Shown here: one piece after another, positions 52,089-53,309 of the stretch | How positions within the stretch are numbered: the stretch's first letter is position 1 | Layout of the letters: each line of letters starts with the position of its first letter | Assembly (NCBI GenBank): GCA_903855945.1 | Contig: CAIOAK010000167.1 | Coordinates: 1-57,547, forward strand | Reading direction: 5' to 3' | Length of the DNA: 57,547 bases | Source of the DNA: an uncultured Anaeromyxobacter sp. | GTDB taxonomy: Bacteria > Myxococcota > Myxococcia > Myxococcales > Anaeromyxobacteraceae | Position numbers and translations under genes: made by a program | Notes under the pieces: model-generated | The model's input: only the letters and a program-made list of their open reading frames with translations | Database searches by the model: none | Told to the model about the DNA's origin: nothing

Positions 52089-53309
52089 ATGGAAAGCAAA
52101 GGGAAGCGGACGTTCCTCCTCGTCGCCGGGGGAGCCGTTCTCGGCCTCGCGGCCTTCGCCGCGTCGAACCGGGCCATCGTCTACGCCGGCACGAACCACT
52201 TCTGCGCCACCGCCTGCCACACGATGGGCCCGGCCGACGACTCCTACCGGCGCGGCCCCCACTTTGCGAACGCGGTGGGCGTGCCGGCCACCTGCTCCGA
52301 CTGCCACATCCCCTACGAGAGCGCCCGCGACAAGGGGGCCATCCAGTGGGTGAAGCTCGTCGTCTTCAAGGCCAAGGTCGGGGTGAGCGACGCCGTGGAC
52401 GAGTGGCGCGGGGTCATCGCGACCCAGGCGAAGTGGGAGGAGGAGCGGTCGCGCCTCAACCGGGAGGTCCACGCGTTCGTCACGCGAACCGACTCGCTCA
52501 CCTGCCGGGGCTGCCACGAGCTCCGCGCCTTCGCGAAGGGCACGATGTACGACCTCGTGCACGCCGGGATGCTCCAGGCCGCCACGGTGGACTGCGTCTC
52601 CTGCCATTCCGGCGTGGCCCACGTCTACGACCACCCGCCCAAGGGCGCGCCTCCCCCCAAGCCGCTCCCGGCCGTCGCCGCCGTGGACGGGGCCATCGTC
52701 CCGGCCGCCCCGCTCGCCGACCTGATCGCGAAGGGGCGGAGCGACTTCGCCCGTTCCTGTTCCTCCTGCCATCGAAAGGGAGGTACCGACCTGAACGCGC
52801 TGCCCCTCTTCGGCGCAGCGGCGGCCTATCCCGCGGTGGTGGACGGCAAGGTGATGACGCTCGACGACCGCATCGACGCCTGCTTCACCCAGCACCTCGG
52901 CGCGAAACCCCCTCCCCCGGGGAGCCCGGAAATGCGGGCGCTCGGCGCCTACGTGACCTCTCTGGCCCAGGGGCGGAGGATGGCGATGAGCGGCAGCGGC
53001 GGCGGGCCGCGCCGGCTCGAGCCCTTGCGAAAGCTGGACGCCCCGTTCTGGTCGGCCCAGGACGTCGCCAAGGGGAAGACCCTCTACGCCTCCCTGTGCG
53101 CGGGCTGCCACGGCGCGGACGGCTCCGGTGGGGCTGGCCCGGCGGTCTGGGGCGCGAAGGCCTTCACCGCCGGGTCGGCGATGGGGCAGCCGGCGAAGCT
53201 CGCCTCGTACATCTCCTCGGCGATGGCCACCTACGCCGGGGCCATGACCGAGGAGCAGGTGCGCGACATCGCCGCATACGTGGACGCGCAGCCGCGCCCA
53301 GGGCACTAG
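52089..53309 (+). CDS. Hexahaem cytochrome c: NapC/NrfH-type tetrahaem domain fused to TsdA-like dihaem domain
   Basis: The 406-aa protein begins with a membrane anchor (about 8-26) and then four haem sites in the NapC/NirT/NrfH layout: CATACHTM (39-46, with CX3CH spacing), CSDCH (69-73), CRGCH (139-143) and CVSCH (169-173). A proline linker (about 183-205) leads to a dihaem part with CSSCH (224-228) and CAGCH (337-341), and the intervening DRIDACFTQHL and SPEMRALGAYVTSLAQG typical of thiosulfate dehydrogenase/SoxA-type cytochromes. It probably carries electrons between the quinol pool and a periplasmic substrate or partner. The first haem motif has an extra residue. Confidence 0.8.
   Translation: MESKGKRTFLLVAGGAVLGLAAFAASNRAIVYAGTNHFCATACHTMGPADDSYRRGPHFANAVGVPATCSDCHIPYESARDKGAIQWVKLVVFKAKVGVSDAVDEWRGVIATQAKWEEERSRLNREVHAFVTRTDSLTCRGCHELRAFAKGTMYDLVHAGMLQAATVDCVSCHSGVAHVYDHPPKGAPPPKPLPAVAAVDGAIVPAAPLADLIAKGRSDFARSCSSCHRKGGTDLNALPLFGAAAAYPAVVDGKVMTLDDRIDACFTQHLGAKPPPPGSPEMRALGAYVTSLAQGRRMAMSGSGGGPRRLEPLRKLDAPFWSAQDVAKGKTLYASLCAGCHGADGSGGAGPAVWGAKAFTAGSAMGQPAKLASYISSAMATYAGAMTEEQVRDIAAYVDAQPRPGH

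Follow-up and report, generated by a model that had tools for sequence, protein, structure and literature searches.

The window, the whole 57,547-nucleotide stretch of DNA that was analysed, contains at 52089–53309 on the forward strand an open reading frame that starts with ATG and encodes a protein of 406 amino acids; all parts of this frame given below are on the same strand. A Pfam search of this protein returned three domains, all above their curated cut-offs: a NapC/NirT tetrahaem domain at residues 5–179 (52101–52625; PF03264, 117.3 bits against a cut-off of 24.1), a SoxA/TsdA-type cytochrome c domain at residues 221–298 (52749–52982; PF21342, 49.9 bits against 27) and a second cytochrome c domain at residues 325–398 (53061–53282; PF13442, Cytochrome_CBB3, 48.4 bits against 27). 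The first domain is separated from the other two, which form a dihaem module, by a proline-rich linker (residues 183–215; 52635–52733). The highest 19-residue hydropathy mean in the protein (1.96) starts at residue 8 and marks an N-terminal membrane anchor at residues 8–26 (52110–52166); this is the one clear hydrophobic segment, a weaker maximum (1.64) falling within the linker around residues 195–214. The best PDB match was to chains of A. vinosum TsdA over residues 215–404 (E about 2e-17), with the SoxA/TsdA-type domain aligning to 4v2k and 4wq7, and the NrfH structure 2j7a matched residues 5–77. An AlphaFold2 model built from three sequences had a mean pLDDT of 34.3 and a pTM of 0.26 and was set aside. 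The preliminary description of this DNA had claimed a NapC-type tetrahaem domain and a TsdA/SoxA-type dihaem module in one chain, and the Pfam and PDB matches bear this out.

The same description had counted six haem sites, and all six motifs were found in the one chain, five of them CXXCH and one CX3CH. The NapC/NirT domain holds haem 1 at C39-X3-C43-H44 (CATACH; 52203–52220), with Met46 two residues after the His, haem 2 at CSDCH (residues 69–73; 52293–52307), haem 3 at CRGCH (residues 139–143; 52503–52517) and haem 4 at CVSCH (residues 169–173; 52593–52607), and the dihaem module holds haem 5 at CSSCH (residues 224–228; 52758–52772) and haem 6 at CAGCH (residues 337–341; 53097–53111). More than one CXXCH occurred in 0 of 2000 composition-preserving shuffles of the protein, against the five observed.

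A search for the same fusion in relatives returned one further example, at locus L013 of an uncultured Anaeromyxobacter sp. MAG (G001, CAIVAR010000124.1) from the same genus-level group, where two of four genomes carry the fusion. The two proteins are 75% identical over their full length and have the same architecture, including the CX3CH first haem (CAAACHTM); the first cytochrome c domain, at 82% identity, belongs to the best-conserved segments, and the linker is less conserved (67%). Comparison of the two genes gave a whole-length dN of 0.175 and dS of 0.760 (dN/dS about 0.23), and the ratio was low in all three segments, with dN and dS of 0.13 and 0.56 for the NapC segment, 0.127 and 1.0 for the first cytochrome c domain and 0.166 and 1.07 for the second. 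The fusion gene is therefore shared with a second genome and has evolved under purifying selection. Because this second MAG has the same architecture at such identity and dN/dS, among different neighbouring genes, and the frame is intact, we rejected a frameshift or assembly error as the source of either the fusion or the CX3CH.

The window genome itself comprises 4.07 Mb in 213 contigs and is 99.1% complete. Among 195 Myxococcota genomes, seven had a match at 1e-25 or better, namely the two fusions and five dihaem-only proteins, and the 299 genomes sampled from the phylum to which a MAG titled Aneurinibacillus sp. (considered below) belongs gave a single match at 1e-18 or better, again dihaem-only. 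No further full-length fusion was found in these two sets of genomes or in plasmids, where none of the 253 matching records held 80% of the protein at a single place. A pattern scan of genome contigs for close relatives recovered one fusion and one NapC-only protein, and a scan of viral contigs found no relative; phyla beyond the two sampled were covered by the pattern scan, which finds close relatives, and by the plasmid records. Overall, the fusion is real and unusual, and it is known from two sequences in a small group of Anaeromyxobacter-type genomes.

In a 35-row tree that carries a long-branch warning, the NapC half of the fusion fell inside the Pseudomonadota NapC/TorC/NirT group with support of 100/98 and did not join the Myxococcota proteins of NrfH-like or other NapC-like type. 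The two fusions scored 116–125 bits against PF03264 and every other match in the Myxococcota sample 65 bits or less. Together, the tree and the scores suggest that the NapC domain was acquired from outside. Lys94 and Asp101 (52368–52391) are in place as putative quinol-site residues: the first position is Lys in 11/11 aligned rows, and the second is Asp or Glu in 11/11, including all nine NapC/TorC comparators. Passages of PMC4683180 give Lys82 and Asp89 as the quinol-site residues of NrfH, and the fusion keeps this +7 spacing, compared with which the NapC comparators are one residue shorter. With Met46, Lys94 and Asp101 all kept, the quinol-type module proposed from the first inspection is supported. 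The fusion also has a nine-residue insertion after haem 2 relative to NapC/TorC (residues 82–101; 52332–52391) and His128 (52470–52472) where 9/9 NapC/TorC comparators have Trp. The NapC/NirT family features found thus comprise the domain score, the N-terminal anchor, the Met at His+2 and the quinol-site Lys and Asp, but in place of the four CX2CH motifs of the family the domain has three CX2CH and one CX3CH. Because CX3CH exists in related proteins, this pattern marks a variant of NapC/NirT rather than an outsider.

The first haem was singled out in the preliminary description for its CX3CH with Met at His+2, set against a two-residue spacing in NapC/NrfH proteins. Both features are present (CATACHTM), but the two-residue spacing is common and not a rule. 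It was found as CX2CHxM in 9/9 NapC/TorC comparators and as CX2CH in 24/24 cleanly read NapC/NrfH-like proteins of Myxococcota, these being the clean reads from 28 non-fusion loci, of which L026 had no frame and L039, L041 and L045 fell in a neighbouring multihaem frame. Nor is CX3CH distinctive of the fusion: ImcH proteins, in the portion of PMC6295460 available to us, have an atypical CX3CH next to the transmembrane part of their NapC-like region, and in another phylum it occurs at 4 of 30 loci, by a rough count in which L071 is probably in the wrong frame. One of the four is the Aneurinibacillus-titled MAG mentioned above (L014, 5929–6504, forward strand), which encodes a small hexahaem NapC-like protein with the first haem CGSVCHSM; this protein and that of the window have the lead-in VYAGTNHFC in common. 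On the 35-row tree the CX3CH label needs three to four changes, and CX3CH was probably gained more than once; a separate gain in the fusion appears likely from the same tree but is not shown by it, given the long-branch warning. Three ResB-type loci and five matches to PF01578, a cytochrome c assembly family, make up the haem-attachment genes found in the window genome (G000); the ResB-type loci lie on contigs C136, C18 and C149, each of which also matches PF01578. As judged from these matches, the genome has several haem lyases of the System II type at its disposal. We infer that haem is attached at the CX3CH site.

We compared the dihaem half with TsdA by alignment, mapping mature to precursor TsdA numbering by counting along it and taking the residue roles from those parts of PMC4423706 that describe the active site. 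Haem 5 is the equivalent of the active-site haem of TsdA, and residues R261-I-D-A-C265-F-T-Q-H269 (52869–52895) form the active-site segment. Cys265 (TsdA Cys123), Arg261 (Arg119) and Met379 (53223–53225), which corresponds to the Met ligand of TsdA haem 2 mentioned in text from PMC5146829 and is the predicted distal ligand of haem 6, are kept in 2/2 fusions and 16/16 TsdA-like comparators (Met in 18/18 aligned rows). In contrast, the position of Ser127, described as invariant in TsdA in the section of PMC4423706 at hand, is His269 in 2/2 fusions and Ser in 16/16 comparators, seven of which were picked by a rule requiring Ser at Cys+4, with their full sequences confirming that Ser is present. 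His at Cys+4 accordingly occurs in both fusions and in 0/16 comparators. The Arg109 position, Arg or Lys in 15/16 comparators, is Val251 in both fusions and lies in a loop with a two-residue deletion, and the Arg224 position is Gln367 in both, a position that is also variable among the comparators. The dihaem modules of the two fusions are set apart by a long branch (2.72) from standard TsdA of the same family. The preliminary claim of a TsdA-like C-terminal half therefore holds for the SoxA/TsdA domain and its Cys, Arg and Met, but not at the CF...H segment to which it had pointed, where His replaces the Ser described as invariant in TsdA. On the basis of these residues, the dihaem half belongs to the SoxA/TsdA family, where it is not filed as TsdA but may work like it, and with the equivalents of Ser127 and Arg109 lost, its preferred substrate may no longer be thiosulfate/tetrathionate.

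Several TsdA-type frames in relatives were observed alongside. One, in the family relative G010 (L004, 1099–2835, reverse strand), encodes a dihaem TsdA-type protein with an in-frame C-terminal rhodanese domain and so represents another sulfur-related fusion; those of two other relatives (L009, 604–2400, forward strand, and L010) have a third CXXCH at the C-terminus. A frame in G051 (L012) is broken by one internal TGA and was left out of the comparators.

The two loci do not have the same genes beside the fusion. Upstream of it in the window, 55 bases away and in the opposite direction, lies an IMP dehydrogenase/GMP reductase-type gene, and downstream are genes for a metallophosphoesterase and a CHASE histidine kinase; at L013, a divergent cytochrome b561 gene, which has no counterpart among the window neighbours scanned, lies upstream and a PAS histidine kinase downstream. 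Among the neighbours scanned in the two genomes we found no partner gene common to both loci and no recognisable sulfur gene beside either fusion, and an operon with a sulfur enzyme was rejected on the neighbours at both loci. Because the neighbours differ, there is no conserved partner, the fusion looks like a one-gene unit and synteny gives no functional lead. A conduit to a separate periplasmic redox partner, as first proposed for this protein, is thus one option, but the absence of a shared partner gene in the two genomes fits a self-contained enzyme at least as well.

Four known systems resemble the fusion in part. Like TorC/TorY-type pentahaem cytochromes, it joins an anchored NapC/NirT tetrahaem domain to a further haem domain in one chain; in the TorC account excerpted from PMC6134056, that second domain takes the electrons of the tetrahaem only to pass them on. 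However, the C-terminus of TorC is monohaem and that of the fusion a dihaem SoxA/TsdA-type module, no TorA lies beside the fusion and its first haem is CX3CH. Membership of TorC was rejected, the NCBIfam equivalog scoring 93.6 bits, far under its cut-off of 478.2. TsdA, the best PDB match, has the Cys at the active-site haem ligand position, Arg119 and the haem-2 Met in common with the fusion, but it is free in the periplasm rather than joined to a quinol module and differs at Ser127 (His), Arg109 (Val) and Arg224 (Gln). SoxA has a Cys-ligated haem domain of the same Pfam family, and Ser127 is absent there too, as stated in the relevant lines of PMC4423706; unlike SoxA, the fusion carries a fused NapC domain, and the SoxA equivalog TIGR04484 scored 44.1 bits against a cut-off of 110. 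ImcH, too, has a NapC-like part in which an atypical CX3CH adjoins the anchor, but it is described, within what PMC6295460 offered us, with three transmembrane segments, whereas the fusion has one clear anchor and a SoxA/TsdA-type module; on this count membership of ImcH was rejected.

We propose that the fusion is a quinol-linked oxidoreductase that consists, like TorC, of one membrane-anchored chain and in which a Cys-ligated SoxA/TsdA-type site would act on an S-S bond, probably reductively; we give this proposal about an even chance of being right. In this mechanism, the anchor and NapC-type domain would exchange electrons with the quinone pool at haem 1, with its CX3CH, Met46 and the putative Lys94/Asp101 quinol site. 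Electrons would then run through haems 2–4, cross the linker to reach haem 6 (His341/Met379) and pass from there to haem 5 (His228/Cys265), where the thiolate of Cys265, with Arg261, would break or form an S-S bond. Electrons would preferentially flow from quinol towards the substrate, reducing tetrathionate or another S-S compound related to it. Menaquinone, which we take to be the low-potential quinone used by the fusion, has a potential near −75 mV. The potentials given in the accessible text of PMC9562282 are +198 mV for the thiosulfate/tetrathionate couple and −186 mV for the haem of CjTsdA. Taken together, these three values would favour substrate reduction; path, direction and substrate are what we infer for the fusion protein itself.

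Three other readings were weighed against the same evidence. In the first, the SoxA/TsdA-type site has been retuned by His269 for sulfite, polysulfide, an organic disulfide or a non-sulfur oxyanion, which, except for the oxyanion, is a narrower form of the proposed S-S oxidoreductase. The His at Cys+4, seen in both fusions and in none of the comparators, and the long branch of the dihaem pair point this way; long branches can, however, also follow loss of constraint, and there is no positive evidence for any one substrate, so that we hold this reading tentatively, as a minority possibility. In the second, the protein is an electron hub with no sulfur chemistry: its NapC module oxidises quinol, its dihaem module does no more than hand the electrons to soluble periplasmic cytochromes or into extracellular electron transfer, and its Cys-ligated haem is a relic. 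Such a role is consistent with the loss of the TsdA substrate-contacting residues at the Ser127 and Arg109 positions, with the other NapC-like and multihaem proteins of the window genome and with the purely relaying second domain that the excerpt of PMC6134056 describes for TorC. Yet the two residues most tied to catalysis, Cys265 and Arg261, are kept in a domain of 82% identity, and a new His preserved in both fusions is not what a relic site would lead one to expect; we regard the hub as unlikely. Most doubtful, and again a narrower form of our proposal, is a true quinol:tetrathionate reductase or thiosulfate:quinone oxidoreductase in which TsdA chemistry persists unaltered and His269 takes over the function of Ser127, for although TsdA is the nearest solved family and Arg119, which had the largest effect on TsdA kinetics where alanine at the other two contacts altered them partly (kinetic passages of PMC4423706), is kept, the Ser stated to be invariant in TsdA is lost and the Arg109 position has become Val in a shortened loop.

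Among titles and abstracts on TsdA, SoxA, NapC/NrfH/TorC, CX3CH and Anaeromyxobacter tetrathionate, we found no report of this fusion. Both modules and the CX3CH are individually known. The fullest form of our proposal is a one-chain respiratory enzyme that would lead from the quinone pool to a Cys-X3-His (Cys265/His269) SoxA/TsdA-type site, act on a substrate other than thiosulfate/tetrathionate and have gained its CX3CH independently, and in this combined form we consider it possible but rather improbable. To our knowledge, known SoxA/TsdA enzymes rely on separate carriers to deliver or take up their electrons. TsdB and monohaem carriers are mentioned in the part of PMC5146829 that was available. 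Where the chain brings its own quinol dehydrogenase, a single gene would encode the whole respiratory module. With His occurring naturally at Cys+4, the fusion lends itself to probing the role of Ser127 in TsdA, and the separate-looking gain of CX3CH at the quinol-facing NapC haem offers a comparison for the unexplained CX3CH of ImcH.
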